From Verrucomicrobiaceae bacterium (lineage in GTDB: Bacteria > Verrucomicrobiota > Verrucomicrobiia > Verrucomicrobiales > Verrucomicrobiaceae): a stretch of DNA of 42,894 nucleotides. The stretch spans positions 1 to 42,894 of the forward strand of contig JARXAL010000111.1 of the NCBI GenBank assembly GCA_029865835.1, given 5' to 3'. Positions 2,099-33,285 of this stretch are shown here, in pieces. The notes beneath the pieces were generated by a model, which did no database searches, was not told where the DNA came from, and saw only the letters and a program-made list of their open reading frames with translations. How positions within the stretch are numbered: the stretch's first letter is position 1; the number at the start of each line of letters is the position of its first letter. The translations under genes were made by a program, and so were the position numbers.

Positions 2099-4513
2099 TT
2101 GACTGACACAGTTTCAGTGGATTCTACTTCCGAGTCTCAAGACGAACTGGCCGCGCCATCAGTCTCAACCTCCTGGGTCGGCCCAACCGCTGCGGTGATC
2201 GCCATCGCCGCCTGCATGCTGAATGCCGGCTCCGCCATCTCCCTTGCCCTGCTGACACTTTTCACAGGCCTTGGACTCGTACTCGCTCCCCCAAAATGCC
2301 AACTCCCCTCCTTTCTTCGTTGGTGCTTTTTCCTCTGCATCGTCACCTCCGCTTTTTCCCTCCTACCCGCCAACTGGTTCGGCGAACTCCCCAAGTGGCG
2401 CCGTAGCCTGGTCGCCGATTGGGGCATTCCTCTGCCTGACTCGTTGTCTCCCCAACCAGCCCTATCACTCGGCGGCCTTTTGACCTTCGCCACGGCCGGA
2501 TGGTGGTTCATTCTCATCCTTGGCAGCAGAATGAATGAGTCCTCTCGCAGACTCACCCTTCGAGGAATTACCCTCGGCATCTACCTGATCGCGGCACTGG
2601 CCCTGGCTCAAAAATTCGGCTGGCTAAACCTCCACTGGCCTCTCGGCAGCACGCCGAACTCAACCGATCTTGGCCCCTTCTCCAATCGCAATCACTTCTC
2701 CAGCCTCTGCGCCATCGGCTGCGTCCTGGGCGCAGGCATGGCACACGATGCCTTCGGCCAAAAATCCCGCACCTTCCTCCTCTATGCCGCTGGCATCCTG
2801 ATCCCATTCACTGGCATCGTCATCAATTCCTCACGCGCTGGCCTCCTCCTCTTCTTCGTCGGACTTACCCTCTGGCTTACCACTGGCTCTGTTCGCCGCG
2901 GCTTCTTCCGCAAACTCGCCGTCACCGCATCACTCGTCTTCGGTGCCGCCTCCATCTTGATTGTTTTCGGTGGCGGCTCTGGCGCTCGATTAGCCGAAGT
3001 CGGGTTCGACCAAGAAACCTTGGGTGGCCGTTGGCCAATCTTCTGCCAGTCTTTTGCCTTAGCATCGCAGGCCCCCTTAACCGGCATTGGCCTGGGAAAC
3101 TTCAATTCGGTTTTTGCACTCACCCACACCCTTCCCATCAGCACGGCCCGCTTCGTTCACCCCGAAAGTGATTGGCTCTGGTGTTGGATTGAACTCGGGC
3201 TGGTCGGCCTGCTACCTCTCGCTCTCGCTCTGCTCTGGTTGCTCTTTGTCAGTTTCCCCTCATCAGACTCCCACAAGCAACGCCGCCACCATGTCCACGA
3301 CCGCCGCCTCCGCACGGTCGCCTGCATCGGCCTCCTGCTCGCTGTTCTTCATGGTCTGGTCGATGTCCCCCTTCATCGCTTCGGCTTCTCCGCCATTGTC
3401 CTCGTCCTCGCCGCGTGCGCCATTCCAGGTCGTAAACTCAAAACCGATTCCCACCTGGCAAGCCGGCTAGCGTACCGGGCAATCGGCCTCTGCCTCCTCG
3501 CCCTCGGGTCGACCCAGGTCATGGCCCTGCGCGACCAACCCCTCTTCACCAACGAATCCTCCACCTCAATTCGCAAAACACAAATCCAAGCCCTCGTCTC
3601 TTCCGGCAAACACTTCGAAGCCCTTCAAGCCTGCAACCGAGCCCTTCACTTTACCCCTCTCGATTGGTCTCTCTATTTCCAGCGCGGCTTCCTCAAACTC
3701 CAACTCCGCAAACCCAGCGCCGATGCGCTGGACGACTTCAACCGCGCTAGAGCGCTAGAACCCAAAAACATCAACCTCTGCCAGGAAGAGGCCGCCTTTT
3801 GGCTGAAGTTTGAACCCAGCATGGCCATCGTTCCCTGGCGCAGTCTATTGGAACGAACCAACAACGCCGCCTTCTTTGGCTCCATGCTCCATCTCGCGCG
3901 CCCGCATCCCACTCTCGCCATCAATGTCCAAAAACTAGCAACCACTCCAGCCATGCTGGCTACCATCCTTTCGACGACACAACCTGGACCCGACTGGGCC
4001 ATAGCTCTGAAAGCCCTCCTCGACCTTGATCCCAACCTTAGCAAAATCGACCTCGAACAAAGAAAACAGGTTCTCTCCCTCTGGCAGGGTCGTGGCGACC
4101 GCGACCAACTCGTCACACTCCTCGAAAGCCACCCCGAATGGCACACCGACTCCTGGCCGCTACTAGCCGAAGAATACGCCCGCAAAACCGAATTCGAAAA
4201 AGCCTGGCACCTGCAGCGTAAGTTCGCTTATGCCTCCAGTCCTCAAGAAGTGAGCAGCGACGCCTTGTTCGAAAACCTAGAGCGCAACTTCGCCCTCAAA
4301 CCAACGGATGCCCGTCTTGGCGTCGATCTCTATTTCGCACAGAAAAAGCGAGGCCTTCTCGATGCAGCCTCTCGCACCCTGGATCGCCTTCAAGCACTCC
4401 CCGATCCCCCCTCGTTCCTGAATCTGGAAAAAGCTGCTCTCTTCGCCGAACGGAAAGACTTTCGCCGCGCCTACGAAACCATGAAAGGCGCGCTGGCAGC
4501 AAAACCCAAATAG
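2099..4513 (+). CDS. O-antigen ligase/polymerase-like membrane protein with C-terminal TPR region
   Basis: The N-terminal 450 residues or so hold about a dozen hydrophobic helices and the Wzy_C (O-antigen ligase WaaL/Wzy) signature: NRNHFSSLCAIG, then SSRAGLLLF, then the periplasmic-loop region with HPESDWLWCWIELGLVG. These enzymes join or polymerise lipid-linked glycans at the periplasmic face. The remaining 350 residues or so are soluble and TPR-like (for example ALHFTPLDWSLYFQRGF). The only candidate start near the frame opening is TTG at 2099, with no ribosome binding site; a start slightly downstream cannot be excluded. It lies 18 bases after the WecA-like gene and is probably cotranscribed with it. 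Ligase versus polymerase cannot be settled from sequence alone. Confidence 0.8.
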   Translation: MTDTVSVDSTSESQDELAAPSVSTSWVGPTAAVIAIAACMLNAGSAISLALLTLFTGLGLVLAPPKCQLPSFLRWCFFLCIVTSAFSLLPANWFGELPKWRRSLVADWGIPLPDSLSPQPALSLGGLLTFATAGWWFILILGSRMNESSRRLTLRGITLGIYLIAALALAQKFGWLNLHWPLGSTPNSTDLGPFSNRNHFSSLCAIGCVLGAGMAHDAFGQKSRTFLLYAAGILIPFTGIVINSSRAGLLLFFVGLTLWLTTGSVRRGFFRKLAVTASLVFGAASILIVFGGGSGARLAEVGFDQETLGGRWPIFCQSFALASQAPLTGIGLGNFNSVFALTHTLPISTARFVHPESDWLWCWIELGLVGLLPLALALLWLLFVSFPSSDSHKQRRHHVHDRRLRTVACIGLLLAVLHGLVDVPLHRFGFSAIVLVLAACAIPGRKLKTDSHLASRLAYRAIGLCLLALGSTQVMALRDQPLFTNESSTSIRKTQIQALVSSGKHFEALQACNRALHFTPLDWSLYFQRGFLKLQLRKPSADALDDFNRARALEPKNINLCQEEAAFWLKFEPSMAIVPWRSLLERTNNAAFFGSMLHLARPHPTLAINVQKLATTPAMLATILSTTQPGPDWAIALKALLDLDPNLSKIDLEQRKQVLSLWQGRGDRDQLVTLLESHPEWHTDSWPLLAEEYARKTEFEKAWHLQRKFAYASSPQEVSSDALFENLERNFALKPTDARLGVDLYFAQKKRGLLDAASRTLDRLQALPDPPSFLNLEKAALFAERKDFRRAYETMKGALAAKPK

Positions 4514-4766
4514 ACCGTCTTTCGAAAAGAAGATCATTTTGAACCAGCGAATCCTGAAGCCTGAGCACAGCCCGCTCCGCTGTCAAAACCATGACAGACA
4601 AGAGGCCGGATCAACGCCACAGCGGGAACTAATGACCGCAAATCTCCCCAAAAGAACAATCCCAAAACTCCAACCCAGCCTTGTCACAAATCAGTAGAAG
4701 GCTCCATGACTCAATCCACCTAGCACCCCACCTTCTCCTCCGCGATACCGTTGTCGCTTCTGAGTT

Positions 4767-8926: not shown

Positions 8927-9528
8927 TATGGGTCAAAAGCAGAAAGCAGGATGGAAACTTGGTCGTCCAGGGCCTCCTCGGATCCGTCATTCCAGATCAC
9001 TTTGGTTGCCTTGTTCGCCTTTTCCAGGACAGGCCACTGCGCGCCCACCATGGACTCGCTGCGGGCCTTGTCCAGCCCTCGGTAGTGCATCAGACGCCGG
9101 ACCTGCTGGTCCAGACTACTGGCCACCACAATCACATGGTCGGCAGCCACCGTACCTCCAATCTCATAGTGGAGAGGCACCTCCGCAACAAAAAGATTCA
9201 CCGTTCCAGCCTCTCGCGCCGCCTCCCTCGCACCCTCCAAGGCTGCTAATACGGGCGGATGCAGAATCGCCTCTAACTCCCTTCTTGCCTTTAAATCCTC
9301 AAACACAAGCTTCCCCAGCTGTTCACGATTCACCTCTCCATTTTCCACAACTCCAGGCCCGATCCTCACCTTGATCGCCTCTTGAATGGCCACCAGACCC
9401 AAAAGCCGTCGAACCTCTTCATCACAAGAATAAATGGCGAGCTTCTCCGCCCCAAGAGACTCTTTCACCCTCGAAAGCACGGTCGACTTGCCACAGGCAA
9501 TCCCCCCGGTGACTACCCAGGATTGCAT
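8926..9528 (-). CDS. coaE: Dephospho-CoA kinase
   Basis: Phosphorylates the 3'-hydroxyl of dephospho-CoA, the last step of CoA synthesis. The P-loop TGGIACGKST lies close to the N-terminus; the family D is in YSCDEEVRRLL, and ILHPPV and VPLHYEIG are typical of the CoaE substrate region. I chose the ATG at 9528 (MQSWVVTGG) because CoaE proteins normally begin a few residues before the P-loop; the track starts nine codons earlier at a GTG (9555). Neither has a Shine-Dalgarno sequence. It is the first gene of the coaE-rho-rnd operon, overlapping rho by one base. Confidence 0.9.
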   Translation of the reverse strand: MQSWVVTGGIACGKSTVLSRVKESLGAEKLAIYSCDEEVRRLLGLVAIQEAIKVRIGPGVVENGEVNREQLGKLVFEDLKARRELEAILHPPVLAALEGAREAAREAGTVNLFVAEVPLHYEIGGTVAADHVIVVASSLDQQVRRLMHYRGLDKARSESMVGAQWPVLEKANKATKVIWNDGSEEALDDQVSILLSAFDP

Positions 9529-31115: not shown

Positions 31116-32816
31116 TCACTCCATCCCGATCAAAGACGTCCGGCACAGCGACGCATACAACCCGTCATGCGCCACCAACTCCTCATGCGTCCCAGACTCC
31201 TTCACCCGCCCGCGCTCAATCACATAAATCCGGTCCGCATGCCGCACCGTCGAAAGCCGGTGCGCAATCACAAAACTCGTCCGCTCCTTCATCAACCGAT
31301 CCAGCGCCTCCTGGATCAACCGCTCCGTCTCCGTATCCACACTCGCCGTCGCCTCATCCAAGAGCAAAATCGGCGGGTTCCTCAGCAACGCCCTCGCAAT
31401 CGACACCCGCTGCTTCTCACCCACACTCAACTTCACCCCGCGCTCACCCACCTTCGTGTCCAGTCCCTCCGGCAACCGCTCCACAAACCCCTTCGCATTC
31501 GCACTCTCCAGCACCTCCCACAGCATCGCCTCCGTCGCATCCCGCCGTCCAATAATGAGGTTCTCCCGCACCGTCCCGTTAAACAAAAAACTCTCCTGCG
31601 TCACATAACCAATCTTCGACCTCAACTCACGCTTGTTCATCTCATGCACCGGCGTCCCGTCGATCGTGATCACCCCATGGTCATACTCATAAAACCGCGT
31701 CAGCAGATTGATCAACGTGCTCTTCCCCGCCCCCGTCGGCCCCACCAAAGCAATTGTCTCACCCGGCTTCGCTCGCAAATCAATCCCCTCCACCGTCGGC
31801 ATCTGCCCCGTGTAAGAAAAGCCCACCCCCTCAAACACCACCTCACCGCGAATCCCATCCAACACCACCCCCGCAGAAGCCGCCACATCCCTCTCCGGTT
31901 CCGAGTCCAAAATATCAAACACCCGCTCCCCTGCTGCCCGCCCGCTTTGCAGGATCTGATTCAACTGATGCAGACTCTCAATCGGCGAATAAAAGAAATT
32001 CAACAGCACCAAAAACGCCGTCAACTCCCCCACCTGAATCCGCTCCTCCATCAGCGCCCGCGCCCCCACCCACAGCACCAGCACCAACCCGCAACTCGTC
32101 AAAAAGTTCATCCCCGGGCGATACATCGACCACACCTTCATCAGGTGCATCGTCGCCGATTTCACCTCCGCGCTCGCTCGATTGAACCTCGCCAGCTCCT
32201 CGTTCTCAATCGCATACGCCTTGATCTGCCGCATCCCCGCCACGTTATCGTGCAGCAGCGAATTCATCGCACTCGTCGCCCGCCGCACCTTCCGATGCCG
32301 ATCCCGCGCGCTCTTCGTGTACCAAACCGCTCCCGCCATCAAAAACGGCACCGGCACCAGCGCCACCAGCGCCAGTTTCGCATCCGCCTGAAACATGAAC
32401 GCCCCCACCACCACAATCTGAATCACCGAAACCAACCCCTGCTCAATGCCATCGATCAACACCCGCTCCACCGACGGCACATCCTCCGAGACCGTCGTCA
32501 TGATGTCCCCCGTCGGTCGGTTATCAAACCACCGCAGCGGCAGCCACTGCAACCGCTCATACAGATCACTCCTCAAATCATAAATCACCTTCTGCTCAAA
32601 CCCGTTGTTCAACCGAATCCGCAACCCATTGAACAAGTGCTGGCAAAAATACGCCCCCAAAGCCGTGAAAATCAGCGGCACCAGCCGATCCCATTCCTTG
32701 TTCGGCACCACCTGGTCCATCACCTCCCGCGTCACCGCCGGAAACACCACCACCATCAGCGTCCCCCCCACCGCACACACCAACTGCGCCACCGCCATCG
32801 CTGGATAGCGCTTCAA
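31116..32816 (-). CDS. ABC exporter (MsbA/lipid-type), fused permease and ATPase
   Basis: 566 residues as tracked. Six transmembrane helices in residues 1-300 form the exporter permease, followed by the ATPase with Walker A GPTGAGKST, Q-loop GYVTQESF, signature LSVGEKQR, Walker B ILLLDEATASVD and H-loop IAHRLSTVRHADR. The substrate may be lipid A or another lipid, by similarity to MsbA. The start is unclear: 32816 is a TTG, yet the frame stays protein-like upstream (VPFYPLVLKTILRVFAYL) as far as an ACG at 32873, with no ATG, GTG or TTG before the TGA at 32879-32877. The palindromic element begins 17 bases beyond that stop. Confidence 0.88.
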   Translation of the reverse strand: MKRYPAMAVAQLVCAVGGTLMVVVFPAVTREVMDQVVPNKEWDRLVPLIFTALGAYFCQHLFNGLRIRLNNGFEQKVIYDLRSDLYERLQWLPLRWFDNRPTGDIMTTVSEDVPSVERVLIDGIEQGLVSVIQIVVVGAFMFQADAKLALVALVPVPFLMAGAVWYTKSARDRHRKVRRATSAMNSLLHDNVAGMRQIKAYAIENEELARFNRASAEVKSATMHLMKVWSMYRPGMNFLTSCGLVLVLWVGARALMEERIQVGELTAFLVLLNFFYSPIESLHQLNQILQSGRAAGERVFDILDSEPERDVAASAGVVLDGIRGEVVFEGVGFSYTGQMPTVEGIDLRAKPGETIALVGPTGAGKSTLINLLTRFYEYDHGVITIDGTPVHEMNKRELRSKIGYVTQESFLFNGTVRENLIIGRRDATEAMLWEVLESANAKGFVERLPEGLDTKVGERGVKLSVGEKQRVSIARALLRNPPILLLDEATASVDTETERLIQEALDRLMKERTSFVIAHRLSTVRHADRIYVIERGRVKESGTHEELVAHDGLYASLCRTSLIGME

Positions 32817-32895
32817 ATAAGCAAAGACTCGGAGAATGGTTTTCAGAACAAGAGGATAGAAAGGAACATACGTCCGTCAATGCGCCTCAGGCGCG

Positions 32896-33074
32896 AACCT
32901 GACCTATTCATGAAAGTCGTCGCGAGACGCCGCGAAAACTCGCATTGGCAAGGCGGGTGCAGTTTTGAAAGGCTAAGTGCATTTGTAAATGCTCGATGCC
33001 TTTCAAAACCAGCCCAACGCCGCCAATGTGGGCTTGCAGCAAGTCGCAGTAGAGTTTCATGAATAGGTCAGGTT
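32896..33074. repeat. 179-bp palindromic element with perfect 20-bp terminal inverted repeats (MITE-like)
   Basis: AACCTGACCTATTCATGAAA at 32896-32915 is repeated in exact inverted form at 33055-33074. Farther in, GTTTTGAAAGGC at 32962-32973 pairs perfectly with 32998-33009, CATTGGC occurs in both arms, and the centre is GCATTT-GT-AAATGC at 32979-32992. The whole element can therefore fold as one long hairpin with a looser middle section. There is no ORF of note inside and no obvious target-site duplication. It is placed between the divergent-side starts and ends of two minus-strand genes and could be a nonautonomous mobile element or a structured RNA. Confidence 0.8.
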
Positions 33075-33285
33075 AGAGCAAAGTGCTGTCATCCGCCTTC
33101 TCCAACCGCCCAATCTTCTTCTTGATGATCTCCAACTGAATCGTCAGCTCATACCCCGCCTTGATGCAGTCCGACTGCGTCTCCGCGTCCCCGAGCTTGT
33201 GAATCGCGGGCGAAATCTTCATCATCTGAAGGGCAATGTTCTTGCAGGCTTCACGAATTTGCAAAATAGCGGCGACTCGATCCAT
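33073..33285 (-). CDS. Small hypothetical protein, alpha-helical
   Basis: 70 residues from ATG 33285, helical and charged (LQIREACKNIALQMM, YELTIQLEIIKKKIGRLEKAD). I do not recognise a family. The TAA stop (33075-33073) takes its last two bases from the end of the palindromic element, so the element may have replaced the original C-terminus. It is divergent from the beta-propeller gene 66 bases away. Confidence 0.5.
   Translation of the reverse strand: MDRVAAILQIREACKNIALQMMKISPAIHKLGDAETQSDCIKAGYELTIQLEIIKKKIGRLEKADDSTLL

Follow-up and report, generated by a model that had tools for sequence, protein, structure and literature searches.

A gene-less palindromic MITE of freshwater Verrucomicrobiaceae that was recently mobile and is probably moved by IS1380-family transposases

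Introduction

How does a long and almost perfect palindrome come to lie at the stop codon of one gene and close to the start of another, and is it a mobile element or a structured RNA? This question is raised by a 42,894-nt contig of a Verrucomicrobiaceae bacterium (JARXAL010000111.1), which was analyzed over its whole length and is referred to here as the window. A first-pass annotation, made from the sequence alone, had described a 179-bp palindromic element at positions 32896-33074 with perfect 20-bp inverted ends and had proposed an undescribed MITE or a structured RNA. The ends at 32896-32915 and 33055-33074 are indeed exact inverted copies, and the window contains no second perfect inverted pair of at least 20 bp within 400 bp; ten order-1 Markov simulations of the window produced 0 pairs of this kind.

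Results

Structure and edges of the element

The inner blocks named in the annotation (CATTGGC, GCATTT-GT-AAATGC and others) also pair and, in agreement with it, no coding ORF is present inside the palindrome, with a longest stop-to-stop frame of about 58 aa in related 175-bp copies. The length of 179 bp holds for the palindrome, but the element proper, CCTGACCTATTCATGAAA...TTTCATGAATAGGTCAGG, covers 175 bp (32898-33072), as the outer AA and TT are part of flanking 4-bp target copies. These edges follow from about 40 copies, in most of which the sequence identity stops at CCTG...CAGG, and from a precise empty site in a congener. The perfect terminal inverted repeats of 18-20 bp are located at 32898-32915 (plus strand, CCTGACCTATTCATGAAA) and at 33055-33072 (the same sequence in minus-strand reading), and the left repeat is conserved in relatives. 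A conserved inner hairpin core (GTTTTGAAAGGC...GCATTTGTAAATGC...GCCTTTCAAAAC, 32962-33010, plus strand) was delimited by an alignment of 25 copies together with structure counts and is common to both arm subfamilies.

Copies, length variants and distribution

The search for copies suggested by the annotation revealed many copies with the same ends and different flanks in the source genome and in relatives. The source genome, a 4.0 Mb draft with 85.6% completeness, contains about 16 substantial dispersed copies and additional fragments, and the nearest copy is 98% identical. Dozens of copies are present in the congeners G001 and G003 and in G028 and G029, which belong to another genus of the family, whereas matching copies are absent from a third congener (G002) and from most of the Verrucomicrobiaceae searched. 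The element was not found in plasmid and phage collections. Copy length varies, with forms of 85, 175, about 240 and about 300 bp that are distinguished by segments in a single arm or in both; in the 240-bp variants the extra 60-65 bp sits in one arm only.

Several loci showed further arrangements. Two MITE copies are located head to tail with few bases between them at G001:C55:6522-6875 (L084), and the orthologous site in G003:C21 (L072) holds a single copy. Two element pieces 1.3 kb apart in G028:C107 were considered as an autonomous copy and rejected, as the locus encodes a response regulator but lacks a transposase. Another kind of repeat with a length of about 100 bp, GACCGTTTCTCGAAAAGATTGTCATTTTGATCCGGCGAGCGCAGTGGCTTCAGTGGCAAGAAAGTCGCGCAGCCCGCTATTAAATCAATAGCGGGC (L008), lies to the right of the G000:C103 copy, just after position 14016 of C103; it has over 50 matching sites in G001 and G003, at about 89-100% identity, and shows a weak 38-bp partial match at window positions 4513-4550.

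Target duplications and empty sites

Most copies are bounded on both sides by CTAG, TTAA or CTAA, which corresponds to a 4-bp YTAR target. The flanking 4-mers of the window copy are unlike, with CGAA on the left (32894-32897) and TTAG on the right (33073-33076), and can be recognized as CTAA duplicates only via a congener. In G003 (contig C78) the locus is unoccupied and reads ...CTCAGGCG-CTAA-AGCAAAGTGC... (GGCG-CTAA-AGCAAAG around the target), whereas the occupied window locus reads ...GGCG-CGAA-[175 bp]-TTAG-AGCAAAG.... Judged from this comparison, the flanks are a 4-bp CTAA duplication that has since changed at one position on the left and at two on the right. The orthologous locus of the other congener, G001:C2:35206-35963 (L227), carries no MITE but has an additional minus-strand ORF of 252 aa between the two genes.

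To extend this approach, the joined 100-bp flanks of 13 other insertions were searched against four relatives. For nine of them the site was uninterrupted and empty in G001 and/or G003 (C151, C261, C88, C232, C114, C219, C231, C50 and C210), with C261 and C88 being empty in G001 and occupied in G003, while for the remaining four (C103, C167, C125 and C32) every site that could be located was occupied. This mixture of occupied and empty sites indicates that the family moved during the divergence of the genus and that older, fixed copies exist in addition. Many copies with the same ends and varied flanks, empty sites in congeners and 4-bp target duplications all speak for the MITE proposed by the annotation, and with its short length of 175 bp (<600 bp) and without a transposase gene the element is a recently mobile, gene-less MITE of freshwater Verrucomicrobiaceae.

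Gene context and stop codons

The gene context is as annotated: the TTA at 33073-33075 is the minus-strand TAA stop codon of a 70-aa ORF without Pfam match (33285-33073, minus strand), so that this stop codon lies inside the target duplication, and an ABC transporter gene (ABC_membrane and ABC_tran; 31116-32816, minus strand), downstream of the element, starts just to the left at about 32816. In 19 of 38 insertions (50%) the TAG or TAA of the target terminates an open frame with a length of 100 codons or more, compared with 15% of the other YTAR sites at the same loci. With sites inside long frames left out, the ratio is 8 of 14 insertions versus 110 of 827 other sites (p = 2e-4), although these counts are based on small numbers, loci from mixed genomes and uncurated frames. 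Many copies are located on stop codons because the YTAR targets contain TAA or TAG and the duplication restores the stop. An excess of this kind is to be expected if insertions that interrupt genes are eliminated and those at stop codons do no harm.

Ends and targets shared with IS1380 elements

Protein and profile searches for IS1380 elements made use of the family profiles NF033539 and PF13701 (DDE_Tnp_1_4). The closest intact element (L191) has a length of 1683 bp, encodes an intact 454-aa IS1380 transposase (NF033539 E 1.7e-89, PF13701 E 1.2e-102), ends in CCCGGATTATTCATGAA and is flanked by CTAG. Its end agrees with the end of the window copy, CCTGACCTATTCATGAA, at 13 of 17 positions and with a CCTGGAT-type MITE end at 16 of 17 positions, and ends of the latter type are also found on MITE copies of the window element's own family (e.g., C32, C50 and C103). 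A second element (L103, 1582 bp) combines an intact 437-aa transposase (NF033539 E 4.4e-120) with CCCGGAAATTTCATGAA ends and CTAG flanks, and the intact IS1380 elements L104, L106 and L115 have CCCGCATTTCTCATA ends. In general, intact IS1380 members from the same order and phylum begin with CCYG and duplicate CTAG, TTAA or TTAG, and these duplications occur around intact IS1380 genes as well as around the MITEs.

Two truncated IS1380 elements possess an end of the MITE type. L169/L177 is a 650-bp element with an exact CCTGGATTATTCATGAA end and CTAG on both sides around a truncated gene, which corresponds to the N-terminus of an IS1380 transposase (PF13701 E 2.8e-29). In the congener G002 a decayed IS1380 C-terminus (L101) is located between CCTGGATTATTCACGAG and CCGGATCTATTCACGAG and flanked by TTAG, with a PF13701 match (E 1.6e-5) below the curated cut-off of the family. 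The PF13701 matches L099 and L100 (G028 and G001) were rejected as partners due to weak scores, an IS4-like look and the lack of these ends. The profile, protein and end searches returned no intact IS1380 element whose ends are exactly CCTGAYCTATTCATGAAA, and the search of the source genome, an incomplete draft, yielded no IS1380 gene. An intact partner with identical ends in the same genome, which was likewise not found there, would be supporting evidence only, since such a partner could have disappeared from the genome or lie outside the draft sequence.

The annotation knew of no matching family, which is still correct for the interior of the element, for which no family name turned up, but not for its ends and target duplications, which match the IS1380 family. 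The shared target duplication and the near-identical ends make IS1380-family transposases the likely movers, and from these sequence features it is probably such a transposase that moves the MITE.

Same ends in other elements

An exact scan for TAGCCTGAYCTATTCATGAAA in a collection of 85,462 species identified 33 stretches, mostly in Verrucomicrobiaceae MAGs, several of which come from ponds or lakes according to their titles, and including one Prosthecobacter debontii MAG. Single or few matches were found in Kiritimatiellales, Lentisphaerae, Chitinivibrionales, Marinilabilia and Granulosicoccaceae; they were discarded as copies of the same element, as only the ends are shared and the interiors are unrelated, and therefore represent different elements with ends of this kind. 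Three elements of 217-240 bp (L134, L145 from a Kiritimatiellales MAG, and L139) have the same ends, CTAG flanks and unrelated interiors and are, by these features, probably separate IS1380-type MITE families. One such end is also located near the edge of a viral contig (L259, IMGVR_UViG_3300033151_000672, 9209-9229), where it adjoins sequence resembling the Kiritimatiellales MITE.

Hairpin and covariation between the arms

RNA folding confirmed the long hairpin that had been expected: the 179 nt fold over the whole length with an MFE of -99.0 kcal/mol, compared to -51.2 +/- 4.4 kcal/mol for dinucleotide shuffles (z -11.0). In the alignment of 25 copies from two arm subfamilies the predicted hairpin is kept with 96.5% of the cells paired, and conservation is higher in the inner core than in the arms. 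The compensating changes between the arms, which the annotation had named as support for an RNA role, are present: 20 of 59 pairs have changes on both sides. We counted 81 compensated cells versus 21.5 in shuffles, a control that ignores relatedness, and versus 3-11 with partners slid, a control that covers relatedness and favors the true register, as the same sequences were used to derive the structure. This strong compensatory change indicates that the hairpin is maintained by selection or by arm-to-arm copying. Judging from the alignment, the paired changes could stem equally from selection acting on a hairpin of DNA or RNA and from template switching between the arms, and compensatory arm change by itself is no proof that an RNA is made or used.

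Discussion

Taken together, we are highly confident that the window element is a non-autonomous MITE moved in trans by an IS1380-family transposase and inserting at 4-bp YTAR targets, which are duplicated. A transposase encoded outside the MITE would recognize its CCTGNNNNATTCATGAA ends in trans and move it by excision and insertion. Insertion at CTAG, TTAA or CTAA would then lead to the duplicated targets, and the hairpin form may play a part in the transposition cycle or in transcripts.

It is also conceivable, albeit rather doubtful, that the whole-length hairpin is itself functional and selected, either at the DNA level, extruded or single-stranded during the IS1380 transposition cycle, or within transcripts. 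Insertion at stop codons would in this case provide host genes with a harmless and repeatedly acquired 3' tail and an intercistronic hairpin.

A reading as primarily a structured RNA, i.e., a cis-regulatory or RNase III-processed transcript hairpin that owes its dispersal to transposition and its present retention to an RNA role, could account for the strong covariation and the conserved inner core, and the window copy, located between two genes on the same strand, would probably be transcribed. We nevertheless regard it as unlikely, as the empty sites in congeners show that most copies are dispensable and a single fixed RNA architecture is hard to reconcile with lengths that vary from 85 to about 300 bp. 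Furthermore, both strands of a nearly perfect DNA palindrome fold, template switching would also give paired changes, and an Rfam search with the 179-base element returned no match up to E = 1.

The IS5 group of the IS5 family also duplicates YTAR targets, and this similar target sequence would fit a MITE of that group; the ends found here, CCYGNNNNATTCATGAA, occur on IS1380 transposase genes, and we consider an IS5 origin very improbable. A REP/REPIN-type palindrome mobilized by a RAYT (IS200/IS605-like) transposase is more improbable still: Y1 (HUH) elements are not known to make target duplications, so the YTAR duplications refute the membership, and the ends match IS1380, a DDE family. The element is palindromic, intergenic and multicopy and GTAG-type REPs were reported in a verrucomicrobium (PMC3733652), but REPs are palindromes of 20-40 bp (PMC3733652) with a GTAG-type tag, whereas the element has 175 bp, 18-bp perfect ends and duplicated 4-bp targets.

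The assignment to a miniature transposon tied to IS1380 and recently active explains a striking palindrome and provides a clean marker for insertions by which related freshwater genomes have recently come to differ. Stop-containing targets are a simple reason for the harmless build-up of such elements at gene ends, and the covariation of the arms poses the testable question why some bacterial MITEs keep a full-length hairpin.

In comparison with known systems, the IS1380 family shares with the MITE the 4-bp CTAG/TTAA/YTAR duplication and the ends CCYGG...ATTCATGAA, which are up to 16/17 identical to the MITE ends, but its members have a length of 1.5-1.8 kb and carry a gene for a transposase of 430-460 aa, while the window element is gene-less. 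GTAG/CGTC REPs and REPINs are likewise palindromic intergenic repeats reported in Verrucomicrobia, but are only 20-40 bp long, linked to RAYTs and without DDE-type target duplications. The literature searched contained no previous report of a MITE derived from IS1380 in Verrucomicrobia; the MITE belongs to a known class of elements and is new as a family, as far as this literature shows. NEMIS/Correia, ERIC, RUP, Nezha and MITEAba12 resemble it in their length of 70-300 bp, inverted ends and missing coding capacity and differ in ends, targets and parent IS. Such long-hairpin MITEs of bacteria are moved in trans and are able to fold in transcripts (PMC3733652, PMC6382973), and what sets the family of the window element apart from the other long-hairpin MITEs is that the arm-to-arm covariation was measured over the full length.
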